NCBI RefSeq assembly: GCF_001458255.1
Contig: NZ_CYSB01000029.1
Span: forward strand, 1 to 64,000
From: Thalassovita autumnalis
Lineage (GTDB): Bacteria > Pseudomonadota > Alphaproteobacteria > Rhodobacterales > Rhodobacteraceae
Length of the DNA stretch: 64,000 bases
Reading direction: 5' to 3'
Part shown: piece after piece, positions 4,448 through 15,723 of the stretch
How positions within the stretch are numbered: position 1 is the stretch's first letter
Layout of the letters: each line of letters starts with the position of its first letter
Position numbers and translations under genes: made by a program
Notes under the pieces: model-generated
Told to the model about the DNA's origin: nothing
What the model saw: the letters and a program-made list of their open reading frames with translations, nothing else
The model's database searches: none

Positions 4448-5332
4448 TCAGCCGGACCAGAATTCACCCAGTCCGCCATTTCGTTGCTCAACCTCTCTAA
4501 TGCGGTGGCTGGTCGCCTGCGGATCGCGGGACACAAGAACTGCCATGAGACTTTCGAGGAGAGCGAGTGTAGCTGTATATGATGAAAAAAATTGCGGGCT
4601 CTCAGAGGGCACGATGAACGGAAAATCCGCGAATTTCAATGCCGGACACGTATGATTATCCGTGATGATGATCGTACGCGCTCCTTGATCCTGCGCCATC
4701 TGGGCCGCCGCAATGGCGCGGCGGGCATAGGGGGATTTGGTCACAATCAGCAGCGCATCCTGCGGCCCCATATCCACCATTGCCGCCCCCAGTGAGGCCC
4801 CCATGCGCCCGGCCAGAACCCAGTTGGTCATGCAGTAATGGGCAAGGTAGGCGAGGTATTCGACAATCCCGGTGGAGCCATAGGCGCCAAACAGAACCAC
4901 CCGGCGCGCCTGACCCAAGGCTTCGGCCGCGGCCTCCACCCGATCTGGGTCCAGCTGGGCGTTCAGCTGCTGGATATTGGCGATCACCGCCTCAGACTGG
5001 CGCTGGATGATCGATGCGGTGGTAGCGTCCCCCTGCCCCAGCTTCGCCGCCTTTTCCGAAAAGCTCTCGACGCGCTGACCAACAGCCTGCCGGCACAGTT
5101 CGCGGATTTCTTCATAGCTGTCGAATTCCAGCGCGCGGGCCAGCCGGGAATAGGTGGCAGGCGGCAGACCGGAGGAGGCCGAGATCGCGCGCAACGACCG
5201 CGAGGCGACATCAATAGGGTTGGACGCAACATAATCGGCTGCGCGCCGCAACTGGGCGCTCAGGTCACTGTATCTGGATGCAATCCGATCTTCGATGGAT
5301 GTCAATTGCGTCACGAATCCCCCCTGTTTCAT
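4448..5332 (-). CDS. RpiR/MurR family transcriptional regulator
   Basis: A 294-residue cytoplasmic regulator. Residues about 15-85 form the RpiR-type helix-turn-helix (RSLRAISASSGLPPATYSRLARALEFDSYEEIREL) and residues about 130-260 a SIS sugar-isomerase fold (VVLFGAYGSTGIVEYLAY, ALLIVTKSPYARRAIAAAQMA) that usually senses a phosphosugar or amino acid-derived ligand. The ATG at 5332 lacks a good ribosome site, whereas the GTG at 5314 (residue 7) follows AGGGGGG, so the protein may be six residues shorter. It is first in the TRAP operon and divergent from an aminotransferase gene, with a palindrome in between, so it most likely controls both. The inducer is unknown. Confidence 0.92.
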   Translation of the reverse strand: MKQGGFVTQLTSIEDRIASRYSDLSAQLRRAADYVASNPIDVASRSLRAISASSGLPPATYSRLARALEFDSYEEIRELCRQAVGQRVESFSEKAAKLGQGDATTASIIQRQSEAVIANIQQLNAQLDPDRVEAAAEALGQARRVVLFGAYGSTGIVEYLAYLAHYCMTNWVLAGRMGASLGAAMVDMGPQDALLIVTKSPYARRAIAAAQMAQDQGARTIIITDNHTCPALKFADFPFIVPSESPQFFSSYTATLALLESLMAVLVSRDPQATSHRIREVEQRNGGLGEFWSG

Positions 5333-5368
5333 CGCAACTTTTCATTTGTATTTTTTCTTGTCAAGAAA

Positions 5369-5384
5369 TGAAACATATGTTTCA
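5369..5384. promoter_or_regulatory. Palindromic operator, probable RpiR-type regulator site
   Basis: TGAAACATATGTTTCA is a perfect 16-bp palindrome in the 130-bp divergent region between the RpiR-type gene and the aminotransferase gene. TGAAA/TTTCA dyads are typical for RpiR-family operators in alphaproteobacteria. An identical half-site, ATGTTTCA, recurs at 4421-4428, about 20 bases before the TAXI gene. Confidence 0.7.
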
Positions 5385-5462
5385 CCTCCCACAAGTCACG
5401 CCGTGTCAGGCGACGATTCGACTTTCTTTGTTTTTGCTGTCTCAGGCTGAAAGGGCGGCACC

Positions 5463-6812
5463 ATGGCTGCATCCACATTTGCAAACACCTCCCATATCTT
5501 TCCCCGTCACACCCAAGTGATTCCCCCACGGGCGGCCCGCGGGGACGGGTGCTATATTCTTGATAAGGATGGGAAACAATACTTCGATGGCTCCGGCGGC
5601 GCGGCGGTGTCCTGCCTTGGGCATTCCGACCCTGATGTGATCGCAGCAGTGCAGGACCAGACCGCCACTTTGGCCTATGCCCACACCAGTTTCTTCAGTT
5701 CAGACCCCGCCGAAGAGCTGGCGGATCTGCTGATCAATCACGCCCCGAAAGGGCTGGATCGGGTCTATTTTGTTTCGGGCGGCTCAGAGGCGATGGAATC
5801 AGCGCTGAAACTGGCGCGGCAGTATTTCACCGAAATTGGCCAGCCGCAGCGGCGCCATGTCATCGCCCGCCGCCAGAGTTATCACGGCAACACGCTGGGG
5901 GTTCTTTCGGTTGGCGGCAACATGTGGCGGCGCGAACAATTTGCCCCGCTGCTGATTGAAACAACCCACATCAGCCCCTGCTACGAATATCGCGGCCGCG
6001 CAGAGGGCGAGAGTGCCTTTGACTACGGTCAACGCGTTGCCAACGAACTGGAAGCGGAAATTCAGCGTCTGGGGCCGGACACGGTCATGGCCTTTGTCGC
6101 GGAACCTGTGGTCGGAGCCACCGCCGGCGCAGTGCCGCCGGTTGAGGGGTACTTCAAACGGGTGCGCGAGATCTGCGATCAACATGGCGTCCTGCTGATC
6201 CTGGATGAGGTGATGTGCGGCATGGGGCGGACCGGAACGCTGTTTGCCTGCGAACAGGAGGGCGTCGCGCCTGATATCACCGCCATCGCCAAGGGGCTGG
6301 GCGCAGGCTATCAACCGATTGGCGCCATGCTGTGTACGAAACAGATCTATCAGGCCATCGAAGAGGGCACCGGCTTCTTCCAGCATGGCCACACCTATCT
6401 GGGCCATCCAGTGGCCGCCGCCGCCAGCCGCGCGGTACTCCGCAAACTGACCGAGGGCGGATTGGTCAAACGCGCCGCCGTGATGGGGGAGACGCTGAAC
6501 ACCGCGTTGCAGGAGCGTTTTGGCCAGCACCCCCATATTGGCGACATTCGCGGCCGCGGCCTGTTCCGTGGGCTGGAGCTGGTGGCGGACCGTGCCAGCA
6601 AAGCGCCCTTTGCCCCGGATCTTGCCCTGCCGAAGAAAATCAAAGCCGCCGCCTTTGAGGCGGGTCTGCTGTGTTACCCGATGGGTGGCACAATAGATGG
6701 CAAGACCGGCGCGCATATCCTGCTGGCGCCGCCGTTTATCATGACCGAGGATCAGATTGGCGAAGTGGTGGATAAGCTGGACATCGCCCTGCGCGCCGCC
6801 CTGCCCGGCTGA
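5463..6812 (+). CDS. Class III pyridoxal-phosphate aminotransferase
   Basis: A 449-residue cytoplasmic enzyme of the class III (omega/ornithine) aminotransferase family. Conserved features in order are the phosphate-binding FVSGGSEAMESALKLAR, the histidine segment RQSYHGNTLG, the cofactor aspartate in LILDEVMCGMGRTGT, and the Schiff-base lysine in AIAKGLGAGYQPIGA. The C-terminus AHILLAPPFIMTEDQI is also typical. Length is normal. It is divergent from the RpiR-TRAP operon and shares its operator, so it probably acts on an amino-containing compound imported by that TRAP system, transferring the amino group to pyruvate or an oxo-acid. The amino donor cannot be named from sequence. A bidirectional terminator follows. 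Confidence 0.92.
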   Translation: MAASTFANTSHIFPRHTQVIPPRAARGDGCYILDKDGKQYFDGSGGAAVSCLGHSDPDVIAAVQDQTATLAYAHTSFFSSDPAEELADLLINHAPKGLDRVYFVSGGSEAMESALKLARQYFTEIGQPQRRHVIARRQSYHGNTLGVLSVGGNMWRREQFAPLLIETTHISPCYEYRGRAEGESAFDYGQRVANELEAEIQRLGPDTVMAFVAEPVVGATAGAVPPVEGYFKRVREICDQHGVLLILDEVMCGMGRTGTLFACEQEGVAPDITAIAKGLGAGYQPIGAMLCTKQIYQAIEEGTGFFQHGHTYLGHPVAAAASRAVLRKLTEGGLVKRAAVMGETLNTALQERFGQHPHIGDIRGRGLFRGLELVADRASKAPFAPDLALPKKIKAAAFEAGLLCYPMGGTIDGKTGAHILLAPPFIMTEDQIGEVVDKLDIALRAALPG

Positions 6813-10429: not shown

Positions 10430-12859
10430 TCAGTCGTGCAGTCCCAGATCGTTGGCGGTTTTCCAGATCCGCCAATGGTCATGCGGCATGTTGGTATGGG
10501 TCAGACCAAAGGCCCGGAATGCATCCTGCACCGCGTTGGAGAAACAGGGCACACCGCCCACATGCGGGCTTTCGCCCACACCCTTGGCGCCGATCGGGTG
10601 ATGCGGGCTGGGGGTGACGGTGTAGTCGGTTTCATAGTTCGGCACTTCCCATGCTGTCGGCAGGAAGAAGTCCATCAGCGTGCCGGTCTTCACATTGCCC
10701 ATTTCGTCATAGGCAATTTCCTGACCCAGGGCGACGGCCAGCGCTTCGGTCAGACCGCCATGCACCTGTCCTTCGATGATCATCGGGTTGATCCGCGTGC
10801 CACAGTCATCCAGCGCATAGAAGCGGCGGATGTCCGGCACCCCTGTGTCCACGTCGATGTCCATCACACAGACATAGGCGCCGAAGGGGTAGGTCATATT
10901 GGGCGGATCATAGTAGCTGACCGCTTCCAGACCGGGCTCAATGCCGGGGATCGCCTGGTTATAGGCGGCGAAGGCAATTTCCTTCATCGTCTTGAACCGT
11001 TCCGGCGCGCCCTTGACCACAAAACGATCCACGTCGAACTCAACGTCGTCGTCATGCACTTCCAGCAGATAGGCCGCGATCATCTGCGCCTTGGCGCGGA
11101 TCTTACGCGCCGCCATCGCAGTGGCCGCACCGGCCACAGGGGTCGAACGCGATCCATAGGTGCCCAGACCATAGGGCGCAGTGTCGGTATCGCCTTCCTC
11201 CAGCGTGATATCATCGGCCGGAATACCGATTTCCGAGGCGATGATCTGGCTGAAGGTCGTCGCGTGGCCCTGCCCCTGGCTGATCGTGCCCAGACGGGCA
11301 ATCGCCGAACCGGTGGGGTGAATGCGGATCTCACAGCTGTCGAACATGCCAAGGCCAAGGATGTCACAGTTCTTGACCGGACCCGCGCCAACAATCTCGG
11401 TAAAGAAGCTGAGGCCGATGCCCATCAGGCTGCGGGTTTTGCCGGCTTTGAAATCCTCAACCCGTTGCGCCTGTTCAGCCCGCAGACCGTCATAGTCCAC
11501 CGCCTTCATCGCCTTGTCCCAGGCTGTGTGATAATCGCCCGAGTCATATTCCCAGCCCAGCGCAGACTGATAAGGGAACTGTTCCTTCTTGATGAAGTTG
11601 ATCCGGCGCAGTTCGGCCGCGTCCATGTTCAACTTGATCGCCAGCACCTCAATCATCCGTTCGATGAAATACACCGCCTCTGTCACGCGGAAGGAACAGC
11701 GATAGCTGACCCCGCCCGGTGCCTTGTTGGTGTAAACACCATCCACGGCCAGATAGGCGGTTGGGATGTCATAAGACCCGGTGCAGATGTTCATGAAACC
11801 GGCCGGGAATTTGGTCGGGTCAGCGCAGGCGTCAAAGCCGCCGTGGTCTGCCGTCACATGACAATGCAGGCCGGTGATCTTGCCCTCTTTGGTGGCCGAG
11901 ATCTTGCCCTTCATCCAATAATCACGGGCAAAGGCCGTGGTCATCAGGTTTTCCATCCGGTCTTCGATCCATTTCACCGGGCGGCCCGTCACGATGGAGG
12001 CCACGACCGAGCAGACATAGCCCGAATAAGCGCCCACCTTGTTGCCGAAGCCACCGCCGATGTCGGGGGAAATCACACGGATGTTGTGTTCCGCAATGCC
12101 CGAGATCAGTGAGACCACGGTGCGGATCGCATGCGGTGCCTGGAACGTGCCCCAGAGCGTCAGCTTGCCGGTGACCTTATCCATCGATGCCACCGAGCCG
12201 CAGGTTTCCAGCGGGCACGGGTGGGTGCGGTGGTAATACATCGTCTCTTCCGCCACCACTTCGGCGCTGTCGATCACGGCGTTGGTTTCCGCCTCTTCCC
12301 CGGCTTCCCAGGTGAAGATGTGGTTGGGGTGGTTGCGCGGACCGTGGGCGCCATCGGTGGCCTTGCCGTTTTCATCTACCGTGTCTTCGCGCAGCACCAC
12401 ATCGGATTTCAGCGCTTCAAACGGATCGACGATCACCGGCAGCTCTTCGTATTCGACCTCAACCAGTTCCACAGCGTCGGCGGCCGCATAGCGGTCCTCA
12501 GCCACAACAAAGGCCACTTCTTGTCCCTGGAACAGCACCTTGCCATCGGCCAGCACCATCTGTTTGTCACCGGCCAGCGTCGGCATCCAATGCAGGCCCA
12601 GCGGTTCCAGATCAGCGGCCGTGATCACGGCAACCACGCCGGGCACTTTCATCGCCTCTTCGGAGTTGATCGATTTCACCCGCGCATGGGCATAGGGCGA
12701 GCGGACAAAATCGCCAAACAGCATGCCGTCCAGCTTGATGTCATCGACGTAGTTGCCCTTGCCTTGGGTGAAGCGCACGTCCTCAACCCGCTTGCGCGAG
12801 CAGCCCATGCCTTTGAGGCCAGCGGCGCGATCTTCGGGGGTTTGTACCTCGTCCTTCAT
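10430..12859 (-). CDS. coxL: Aerobic carbon monoxide dehydrogenase, large subunit, form I
   Basis: An 809-residue molybdenum hydroxylase subunit, the same length as Afipia CoxL. The active-site loop is SYRCSFR at residues 385-391, so the copper-binding cysteine falls at C388 exactly as in Afipia. Form I enzymes carry AYXCSFR, whereas form II enzymes carry AYRGAGR, so this is form I with serine in place of the first alanine. The catalytic glutamate is E763 ([13 protein letters not shown]). It oxidises CO to CO2 at a [CuSMoO2] centre, passing electrons to the iron-sulfur subunit. The ATG at 12859 overlaps the coxS stop as ATGA; an in-frame ATG 84 bases upstream would run into coxS. It forms the (MSL)2 complex with its neighbours. 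Confidence 0.96.
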
Positions 12860-13350
12860 TCCGCGGCCTCCTTCTGGGCGTTCAACTGATCCGACGCCGC
12901 CATGATCGATTTCACGATGTTCTGGTAGCCAGTGCAGCGGCAAAGGTTGCCAGCCATGCCGAAACGTACCTCTTCCTCAGTTGGGCTGGGGTTTTCCTGC
13001 AGCAGGCGATGGGCGCGGGTGATCATGCCCGGTGTGCAGAAACCACACTGCAGCCCGTGGTGTTCGCGGAACATTTCCTGAATGACACCAAGGGTGCCAT
13101 CGTCATTGGCCAGACCTTCAACGGTGGTGATTTCAGCCTCTTGCGCCTGCGCCACAAAAACGGTGCAGGATTTGACCGACTTGCCATTCAGATCAACGGT
13201 GCAAGCGCCGCAGTGGCTGGTTTCACAACCGATATGCGGACCGGTGATTTTCAGATTTTCCCGCAGGAAATGGATCAGCAGGGTGCGCGGCTCGGCAAGG
13301 CCTTCAACCTCGCGCCCGTTCACCTTCAGCTTTACGTGCATCTTGGACAT
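12856..13350 (-). CDS. coxS: Carbon monoxide dehydrogenase, small [2Fe-2S] subunit
   Basis: A 164-residue iron-sulfur protein with both expected clusters. The plant-type ferredoxin domain holds C42, C47, C50 and C62 ([11 protein letters not shown]), and the C-terminal helical domain holds C102, C105, C137 and C139 (CGFCTPGM and CRCTGY). It carries electrons from the molybdenum site of CoxL to the FAD of CoxM. The start at 13350 is preceded by GGGAGGAACC; the open frame runs further upstream into coxM and is not used. There are 20 bases between it and coxM. Confidence 0.96.
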
Positions 13351-13370: not shown

Positions 13371-14237
13371 TCAGTTGGACGCGCGCGCAATGGCGCGGTC
13401 GATGGCCCGGCGCAGAATGACGCCCGCCACATGTTTCTTGAATTCGACGGGACCGCGGTTGTCGGCCACGGGTTCGATCGCATCGATGGCCGCAGCAACC
13501 GCCGCCTTGCAGGCCACATCGCCCAGATCGGAGCCCACCAGCGCGTCGCTGGCCGCTTCGCACCAGATCGGCGTATCGGCGAGGTTGGTCATTGCAATGG
13601 ACGCCGCGGTGCAGACACCGCCTTCGGTCTGGATCATCACACCCGACGCTGCGGTGGCGTAGTCACCGATTTTGCGCTTTTGCTTTTCATAAGCCTGACC
13701 CGTCCCTGCGGCGGGTACAGGAATAATCACCTTGGTCAGGATTTCCTCATCCTCACGGGCGGTGAAATAGGCGGCCTCATAAAACTCACGCGCCGGAACC
13801 TCACGGGTGCCGTCGGGGCCCACCAGTTCAAAGCGCGCATCAAGGCATTGCATCAGTCCCGGCATGTCATTGCCCGGATCGCCGTTCGCCACATTGCCGC
13901 CGATGGTGCCAACGTAGCGCACCTGCGGGTCCGCGATCACCAATGCAGCTTCGCGAATGATCGGCACGGCCTGCGCAAGCGCGTCATTTTCAATCAGCTC
14001 ATGCTGGGTAACCATTGCACCGATCGTGACTTCGTCGGTTCCGATCGAAATGCCTTTGAGGGCGTCGATGTCTTGCAGATCAATCAGGTGATCCACATCC
14101 GCCATGCGCAGTTTCATCATCGGGATCAGGCTGTGCCCGCCCGCGATCACCCGCGCGTCATCTCCGTGTTCCTGCAAAATGGACAATGCCCCGGCAACGT
14201 CCGCGGGCCGATGGTATTCAAATCCACTGGGTATCAT
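13371..14237 (-). CDS. coxM: Carbon monoxide dehydrogenase, medium FAD subunit
   Basis: A 288-residue flavoprotein subunit. The two FAD-binding signatures are present, AGGHS at residues 32-36 and TIGGN at 111-115, and the ending is typical of the CoxM/CutM family. It takes electrons from CoxS and passes them to the respiratory chain. It is first of the structural genes in the order M-S-L, which is the form I arrangement (form II clusters read S-L-M). A GGAGG ribosome site lies nine bases before the ATG at 14237. Upstream are a small leader hairpin and direct repeats that may bind the adjacent LytTR-type regulator. Confidence 0.95.
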
Positions 14238-14255
14238 ATGTCATATCCTCCCTGT

Positions 14256-14271
14256 GCCCGTCCTCACGGGC
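14256..14271 (-). promoter_or_regulatory. Small leader hairpin before coxM
   Basis: A perfect 6-bp stem, GCCCGT with ACGGGC, and a 4-base loop lie just upstream of the coxM ribosome site. It could stabilise the 5' end of the message or affect translation. No known riboswitch is recognised. Confidence 0.35.
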
Positions 14272-14324
14272 GACACGGGGCGATGACCTCAAATGTGACG
14301 TTGGTTTGCCAACAAACTCAAACG

Positions 14325-14374
14325 GTTGACGAGTTGCGCTGCACGAAATGCGAATAGTCTGCACGAGTTGCGAA
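14325..14374. promoter_or_regulatory. Direct repeats upstream of coxM, candidate LytTR-regulator sites
   Basis: Three copies lie in the same orientation: GTTGACGAGTTGCG (14325-14338), CTGCACGAAATGCGAA (14339-14354) and CTGCACGAGTTGCGAA (14359-14374). The last two match at 14 of 16 positions and start exactly 20 bases apart, about two helical turns. LytTR domains typically bind pairs of short direct repeats spaced about two turns apart. They lie 88-137 bases before coxM, inside the 367-base gap behind the LytTR gene, which otherwise holds no gene I can see. Confidence 0.6.
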
Positions 14375-14604
14375 GGGCGAGACAGCACGCTCAGGTTGAG
14401 CGCCGCTGCGTTCAGCGGGGACCGCGGCACCCAATTACGGCAACTACCGCATCCAACTGCATCCACAGACGGCGAGTTTCAGCAGGGGCAAAGTCATGGA
14501 TTACAAGTAGGATCAAACGTGGCGTCAGCGCATCGCAAAGCAGCCAATCGCGCTATTCTGCGTCGGAGAGAAACCGGAAACCATCCGTTAAGAAAGCGCC
14601 CCGA

Positions 14605-15723
14605 TCAGACGCCCAGCACGTCGCGCACTTCGCTCATCCGAGAGCGCGAGACCGGCACTTTCGGCAGGGCCGGCACCTCATCGAAGTAGCAGGTGCCATT
14701 GTCCTTGCGGCGCTCAAAGCTGGACACGAAGGCGGGGTTCACCAGATAGGATCGATGCACCCGCAGGAAGCCTGCGGGTGCAAGCCGGTTTGCCGCTTCG
14801 GTGATGGACCAGGGGCAGAACAGCTTCTCCTCGCCGACATAAAGCAGGGTGTAATGCCCCTCGGCGCGCAGGGCCGCAATGGTTTCGGGCAGGGCAAAAT
14901 GTGTCTGCCCCTCTCGCTCAAAAGGCACCCCGACCTTGGGCGCCGTTATCGGCGCGGGCTCCGGCGCGCTGGCGACCTCTGGCACATCGGGGTTGGTGGG
15001 CGGCGCAAGGTCCTCATCGGCGCTGAAAAAGGTGATCCCGGTTAGCAAAAACGCCCCGCAGATCAGGAACACCGCAACCGTGACCCCCATGGCCAGCACC
15101 TGATTGTCCAAGGCCGGTCCGGCAACGCCGGTTGCCTCAGACGTGGTGAATTCGGTCAACCCAATGGCAACGAAGTGCATGCTGACCACCGCCAGGCCGA
15201 AACACACGGTTCCCAACAGGATGTTGCGATGGGTGCGGGCGTCATAGGCCACCCAGATCGCCAGGGTCGACAAAACCAGCGAAGCCGCGGTTGATATAAC
15301 AATGTCCAAGACGCCATAGACCGGGCGACACAGCTGCATGCCCGCCATACCGATATAGTGCATCGCCACGATACCCAGACCAAGGATACACCCCGCAGCC
15401 ACAATCACCGGCGGGCGACGTTTCTGAAAATGCAGCAGCAACAACGCCAGCCCCACCACAAGAATCGCCACCAAGGCCGAGGCCAAAGTGATCAGCGCGT
15501 CATAGTAAAACAGGATCGGCAGCTGCAGCCCCAGCATCGCCACGAAGTGCATCGACCAGATGCCACCGCCCAGCACGACGGACGCCATGGCCACCGCAAT
15601 CTTGCGCCGGGCCGCAGGCAAGGTCGAGGCGCCCTTGGTCAGGGTTAGCCCGGTGAATCCCGCCATCAAGGCCACAGCAAAGCTTGCCGCAACCAGCCAC
15701 CATGAGTGGGTAAAGTCCAACAC
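14605..15723 (-). CDS. coxC: MHYT-LytTR membrane regulator, CoxC/CoxH type
   Basis: A 372-residue protein with an N-terminal membrane sensor and a C-terminal DNA-binding domain. The sensor shows three MHYT-type motifs, SMHF (residues 57-60), AMHY (120-123) and SMHF (181-184), in seven predicted helices through about residue 233. These motifs have been proposed to bind a metal, perhaps copper, and sense a diatomic gas. After a proline-rich linker (about 240-265), residues 275-372 form a LytTR domain (FLRVHRSYLVNPAFV, VPVSRSRMSEVRDVLG). CoxC and CoxH of Afipia have this same architecture, and coxC lies directly upstream of coxM there as here. The start is GTG after GGGAGGC. It probably switches the cox genes in response to CO or redox state. 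It could equally be named CoxH-like. Confidence 0.88.
   Translation of the reverse strand: MLDFTHSWWLVAASFAVALMAGFTGLTLTKGASTLPAARRKIAVAMASVVLGGGIWSMHFVAMLGLQLPILFYYDALITLASALVAILVVGLALLLLHFQKRRPPVIVAAGCILGLGIVAMHYIGMAGMQLCRPVYGVLDIVISTAASLVLSTLAIWVAYDARTHRNILLGTVCFGLAVVSMHFVAIGLTEFTTSEATGVAGPALDNQVLAMGVTVAVFLICGAFLLTGITFFSADEDLAPPTNPDVPEVASAPEPAPITAPKVGVPFEREGQTHFALPETIAALRAEGHYTLLYVGEEKLFCPWSITEAANRLAPAGFLRVHRSYLVNPAFVSSFERRKDNGTCYFDEVPALPKVPVSRSRMSEVRDVLGV

Follow-up and report, generated by a model that had tools for sequence, protein, structure and literature searches.

A putative operator of paired direct repeats in front of coxM, linked to a CoxC-type MHYT-LytTR regulator, in Thalassovita autumnalis and its relatives

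The DNA analysed in this work, hereafter the window, is a stretch of 64,000 nucleotides from Thalassovita autumnalis that harbors on its minus strand a cluster of CO dehydrogenase genes. The medium subunit is encoded by coxM (positions 13371–14237; Pfam FAD_binding_5 and CO_deh_flav_C), the proposed target of the element described below; the small subunit is encoded by coxS (12856–13350; Fer2_2 and Fer2), whose start codon was inferred from the relative in locus L034, and the large subunit by coxL (10430–12943; MoCoBD_1, MoCoBD_2, and Ald_Xan_dh_C), given here as the longest ORF, the true start of which probably lies further in. The gene upstream of coxM (14605–15723, minus strand) codes for a CoxC-type MHYT-LytTR regulator, the proposed binder, with Pfam scores of 107.8 bits for MHYT and 54.8 bits for LytTR (residues 275–370). 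Its N-terminal part carries the MHYT motifs MHFV, MHYI, and MHFV at residues 58, 121, and 182, respectively, which align with those of Afipia CoxC. This is in agreement with a previous sequence-only reading of the same DNA, which had seen in this gene a LytTR protein with a membrane MHYT sensor, as in Afipia CoxC. The Pfam search reported no heme-sensor domain in the protein, whose MHYT domain sets it apart from RcoM. The genes lying behind the regulator on the same strand encode, according to Pfam, CoxM, CoxS, CoxL, an AAA ATPase, CoxE, XdhC/CoxI, and CoxG proteins.

The element under study (14325–14374) lies 88–137 bp 5' of coxM, inside the 367-bp gap that follows the MHYT-LytTR gene. The previous claim of two 16-mers matching at 14 positions, 20 bases apart and 88–137 bases before coxM, holds at the exact positions 14339–14354 and 14359–14374 (14 of 16 positions equal, starts 20 bp apart), and the coxM start at 14237 on the minus strand gives the same distance. 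Moreover, the 10-mer 14329–14338 is an exact copy of 14363–14372. On the minus strand, that is, the cox-coding strand, the element reads TTCGCAACTCGTGCAG-ACTA-TTCGCATTTCGTGCAG, then CGCAACTCGTCAACCGTTT, and the pair consists of half-site 1 of the putative operator, CGCAACTCGTGCA (14360–14372), and half-site 2, CGCATTTCGTGCA (14340–14352), which starts 20 bp past the former; both assignments are based on pattern and matrix matches and on the conservation of the pair in relatives (see below). The last eight bases of half-site 2, TTCGTGCA, agree with the core TTCNNGCA given for RcoM in PMC11347149, a paper that is quoted here and below from excerpts. When the gap was submitted to dinucleotide shuffling, 14 matches out of 16 at a spacing of 18–22 were reached in 0 of 1000 shuffles, and in 8 of 1000 at spacings of 16–100. 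In the whole 4.36-Mb genome, the pair pattern at fixed spacing, with up to three mismatches allowed, retrieved one perfect site, which is the one before coxM, and one site with three mismatches; the same pattern written backwards, used as a control, retrieved four such sites. As far as the surroundings are concerned, in most relatives the regulator stop codon comes just a few bases 5' of half-site 1, and the gap between the two is about 225 bp longer in the window (14375–14604).

The phylogenetic distribution of regulator and pair was checked in a sample of 295 genomes of the family. The MHYT-LytTR regulator, called at E ≤ 1e-30, was present in 67 of them. A strict pair pattern (CGCANNTCGTG-N7-12-CGCANNTCGTG) occurred in 41 of the 295 genomes, with one site each, every one of them belonging to the 67 that harbor the regulator; none of the 228 genomes without it contained the strict pattern, and the backwards pattern gave one match in each of two genomes out of 295. 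Fisher's test of strict pattern against regulator, in which kinship is ignored, gave 9e-33. Close relatives of coxL (E ≤ 1e-200, 71–100% identity) were found in 72 genomes, among them all 67 regulator genomes, so that the association of the pair with cox is almost as close as that with the regulator. The five coxL genomes outside the 67 (G008, G083, G102, G109, and G110) did not show any regulator even at 1e-5. Besides the 67 coxM leaders, those of G083, G109, and G102 were read, G008 and G110 being left out. The leader of G102 is short, as the contig ends there; that of G083 contains no pair, and that of G109 (L214) has a degraded pair 122 bp 5' of coxM, reached by none of 200 shuffles, which is possibly an operator decaying after the loss of the regulator. 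The co-occurrence argument is weakest at this point because just two regulator-less coxM leaders, those of G083 and G109, can be judged.

With at most three mismatches out of 18 positions, the pair was found in 65 of the 67 coxM leaders from regulator genomes, at a spacing of 20 bp in 30 and 21 bp in 35, and with its start 118–166 bp 5' of coxM. Mononucleotide shuffles (20 per leader) gave a minimum of three mismatches in one genome and of at least four in all the others. The consensus of the 13-bp half-site over the 65 leaders is CGCANTTCGTGCA for both sites, and G at base 2, T at base 7, and G at base 11 are invariant at both sites in 65 out of 65, an invariance that is partly due to the sites having been picked by their likeness to the consensus. 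The two failing leaders belong to G227 and G017, whose regulators are diverged (about 41–44% and 32–34% identity, respectively); there the matrix gives a weaker pair, matched by 0 and 1 of 200 shuffles, respectively. According to the sequence-only reading, the repeats should fit binding by the adjacent regulator and should recur before coxM in relatives endowed with it; their presence in 65 of 67 such leaders and the lack of the strict pattern in the 228 regulator-less genomes bear out the latter and support the former.

In seven genomes (L034, L094, L072, G007, L078, G279, and L069) the regulator gene lies away from coxM, at a distance of about 1.3 kb in L034 (Shimia), 1.6 kb in L094, 2.4 kb in L072, 3.8 kb in G007, about 9.5 kb in L078 (Shimia R9_2), and about 31 kb in G279, the two genes being on different contigs in L069 (Shimia abyssi). 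All seven have the pair still 118–137 bp 5' of coxM, L069 with two mismatches. The 500 bp 5' of the regulator gene did not contain any pair above 14 bits in 88 entries (a few genomes being counted twice), the pairs in the 65 coxM leaders scoring 25.8 bits or more. The displaced regulators, the empty regulator leaders, and the lone fitting site in the T. autumnalis genome indicate that the site is tied to coxM and resembles an operator with a single target. Two further observations concern the arrangement of the locus. In the Shimia MAG of L034, a 396-codon ORF (5155–6345), whose product we take to resemble a Hint-domain protein, is located between the regulator and the coxM operator. In G000 and G076, which belong to the same genus, the regulators are only about 50% alike and the pairs differ in spacing (20 and 21 bp, respectively), which suggests an exchange of the cox locus.

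A third repeat accompanies the pair in most relatives. In 39 of the 65 leaders, the best third 13-mer over the 57 offsets following site 2 fell at +20 (18 genomes) or +21 (21 genomes), an even spread being expected to give about two, and the distance from the first to the third site is 41 bp in 29 of those 39 genomes, as though the overall length were under a tighter constraint than the individual spacings. This additional repeat varies and is weaker than the pair, being of the TTTCATTGA or CCGTTC types. In T. autumnalis, the predicted weak third half-site at +21 (CGTCAACCGTTTG, 14319–14331, minus strand) occupies the position held in relatives and is a poor match, outscored by the +14 copy (CGCAACTCGTCAA, 14326–14338, minus strand). 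The latter is the third, shorter copy that had been described alongside the two 16-mers: the identity of the 10-mer is real, but it starts 14 bp after the second repeat and is thus off the two-turn phase, the conserved third repeat being at +20/+21. Since +14 is the best offset in this genome alone out of 65 leaders, and no such copy was found in the three Shimia leaders inspected (L034, L259, and L260), we rejected it as a general third half-site; we take it as a local oddity that might still play a role in this genome. Extra part-copies occur nearby in L014 and L030, too.

The search was then widened to a class panel of 385 genomes, 37 of which matched the regulator at 1e-20: four from this family, ten others with a match extending over both domains, and 23 with a match covering the MHYT part only or nearly so. 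We chose 25 loci, namely those ten, G227 and G017, G083 and G109, five contigs, and six plasmid records (out of 19 with 80% coverage). In S. meliloti and G557 no coxM was found in the stretch examined, which leaves 21 loci with both regulator and coxM. In 18 of these regulator-linked coxM leaders, belonging to other families and loci and including those of Afipia, Bradyrhizobium betae, two Rhizobium, Shinella, and Zhengella, the pair beat all 200 dinucleotide shuffles. The remaining ones are G017 (reached by 1 of 200 shuffles), G476, which is borderline (2 of 200), and G625, where the regulator precedes coxM and no pair was found, since 58 of 200 shuffles attain its best score.

The binding site of CoxC-type regulators, which had been considered poorly defined, has already been described: in Afipia carboxidovorans OM5, CoxC, an MHYT-LytTR protein, binds three direct repeats at PcoxB (PMC11347149, 2024). 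According to the same source, it represses PcoxB, CO releases the repression, copper is needed, and the operator overlaps the -35 box. Among the literature matches listed, no other paper deals with a CoxC operator. The system described here shares with that of Afipia the MHYT-LytTR architecture, direct repeats with TTNNNGCN-like cores, and a cox target; it differs from it in that the site precedes coxM instead of coxB, in its 13-bp half-site, and in the starts of the 8-bp cores, which are 20–21 bp apart here versus 29 and 26 bp in the published Afipia repeats. The TTNNNGCN core is exact in half-site 2 and has one mismatch in half-site 1 (CTCGTGCA); an exact core occurs in 39 of the 65 leaders at site 1 and in 41 of them at site 2. 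Between the cores there are 12–13 bp and not the published interval of 18–21 bp between 8-bp repeats, an interval with which the sites would agree after the re-registering of the Afipia repeats proposed below. The RcoM-1 operator of Paraburkholderia xenovorans, which controls cox, has TTCNNGCA cores with 12–13 bp spacers and a 20–21 bp period, RcoM being an activator with a LytTR domain and a soluble heme sensor domain (PMC11347149). The likeness extends to LytTR, to these cores and spacers, and to cox control, whereas the sensor here is a membrane MHYT domain and T. autumnalis has a weak third repeat. In the 65 leaders, it is only the two strong sites that combine the TTCNNGCA core with a 12–13 bp spacer; the core is exact at site 2 in 40, and at site 1 it is exact in 18 and has one mismatch in 30. 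Canonical LytTR sites, that is, paired 9-bp direct repeats 10–13 bp apart (PMC11347149), are also direct repeats about two helical turns apart, and they differ from the present ones in the third repeat of most relatives and in the half-site, which here is longer and of another sequence.

The analysis of a 9.2-kb Afipia locus (L112) revealed two pairs. At PcoxB, CGCAGTTCATGCG and CGCCGTTGGTGGA are 21 bp apart and AGTCGTTTGGGCA follows 20 bp on (2184–2237; 23.8 bits for the pair); in the coxM leader, CGTATTTCGTGCA and TGCTTTTGGTGAC are 20 bp apart and GATGTCTGGTGCG follows 20 bp on (5224–5276; 22.0 bits). Both pairs were reached in 0 of 1000 shuffles, and among the best three per strand the other pairs did not exceed 5.4 bits; the third 13-mers have poor matrix scores at both sites. 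The operator-like set before Afipia coxM (20 + 20 bp) would be an unreported copy, absent from the account in the excerpts of PMC11347149, in whose main text the term "PcoxM" does not occur. The published PcoxB repeats, TTACCGCC, TTTGGGCA, and TTGCGGCA, have starts 29 and 26 bp apart, their intervals being given as 18–21 bp (PMC11347149). Published repeat 2 (TTTGGGCA) is the core of the third matrix half-site (AGTCGTTTGGGCA), the published change in repeat 1 (TTACCGCC) also hits the conserved G of matrix half-site 2, and repeat 3 (TTGCGGCA) falls outside the matrix triplet. Hence, the weak binding of PcoxB mutants 1 and 2 (PMC11347149) is compatible with both registers, but the complete loss in mutant 3 (PMC11347149) favors the published one. 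Moreover, the best pair inside the 282-bp published probe alone is weak (39 of 1000 shuffles, versus 0 of 1000 for the 626-bp leader), because the probe starts two bases inside matrix half-site 1. In view of the mutant data and of the probe start, the new PcoxB register represents a proposal and not a refutation.

What the sequences themselves show is a half-site that recurs with a 20–21 bp period, is located before coxM, and is tied to the presence of the regulator. On this basis, we consider it very probable that the repeats serve the adjacent CoxC-type regulator as its operator, through which it would control coxMSL. In this scheme, LytTR domains would bind the two strong 13-bp half-sites, and in most relatives the weaker third one, with the half-sites lying on one face of the helix; the membrane MHYT part would sense CO, which would change the occupancy of the operator, and the occupancy would in turn set the transcription of coxMSL and of the genes behind. 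We infer that it is this protein that binds here, presumably in a cooperative manner, and with which sign it acts. Concerning the sign, the Afipia precedent makes us lean slightly towards a repression lifted by CO. With the same operator, the regulator might otherwise activate coxM in the way described for RcoM, acting from sites 5' of the -35 box; we would give this somewhat less than an even chance. The scan of 14200–14650 found neither promoter nor terminator, and thus no -35 box that the operator would overlap as it does at PcoxB; the leader has no promoter-like site of 9/12 or better, as might suit an activator-dependent promoter. Furthermore, 14 of the 65 leaders have [CT]AT[GA]C at offset +59 relative to half-site 2, and were it the -10 box, the operator would lie just 5' of the -35. 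This promoter evidence is weak, however, as the search for a fixed -35/-10 pair across the 65 leaders gave no consistent answer, and the sole tested member, Afipia CoxC, is a CO-released repressor of PcoxB (PMC11347149).

It is improbable, in our opinion, that another cox-controlling protein uses the pair as its site, the tie of the pair to the MHYT-LytTR gene only reflecting a shared travel with cox. The close coxL in all 67 regulator genomes, the degraded pair retained in G109, where the regulator was not found, and a site whose location follows coxM rather than the regulator would all suit such a protein; G083, which has cox and in which neither regulator nor pair was found, does not. Moreover, the half-sites share core and period with the published CoxC and RcoM sites, and a pair of the same kind is present in the Afipia PcoxB region bound by CoxC in vitro (PMC11347149 for both). 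A role of the element in RNA, in transcripts running from the regulator gene into coxM, would take advantage of the co-directional arrangement of the two genes with the element in between where they are adjacent; it appears very improbable, given that the repeats are direct, that their place before coxM is kept when the regulator gene is elsewhere, and that Rfam gave no family match at 13900–14900. Chance or a functionless local duplication is hardly credible for the pair, considering the shuffles at spacing 18–22 and its conservation in 65 of 67 genomes, even if the +14 copy may be a local duplication.

Returning to the operator of the CoxC-type regulator, these data make it likely, although with less certainty than for the single locus, that one operator is shared across Alphaproteobacteria, with the CGCANTTCGTGCA half-site, a 20–21 bp period, and a place before coxM. 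Afipia would possess two, the coxM one unreported and the PcoxB one with its published register shifted; the CO dehydrogenase genes, rather than coxB, would be the general target and, in most of these genomes, the sole target; the operator geometry would then be common to CoxC and RcoM despite their unrelated CO sensors. This kind of operator is already known; what we add is a better-defined motif, its location at another promoter, and its broad distribution. The 13-bp half-site, its occurrence in coxM leaders of other families, the Afipia coxM copy, and the proposed PcoxB register would be new. Transcription of the cox genes has been described as CO-dependent (PMC3471820), and the present analysis points to coxMSL as the likely direct target of the CoxC-type regulator in marine CO oxidisers.
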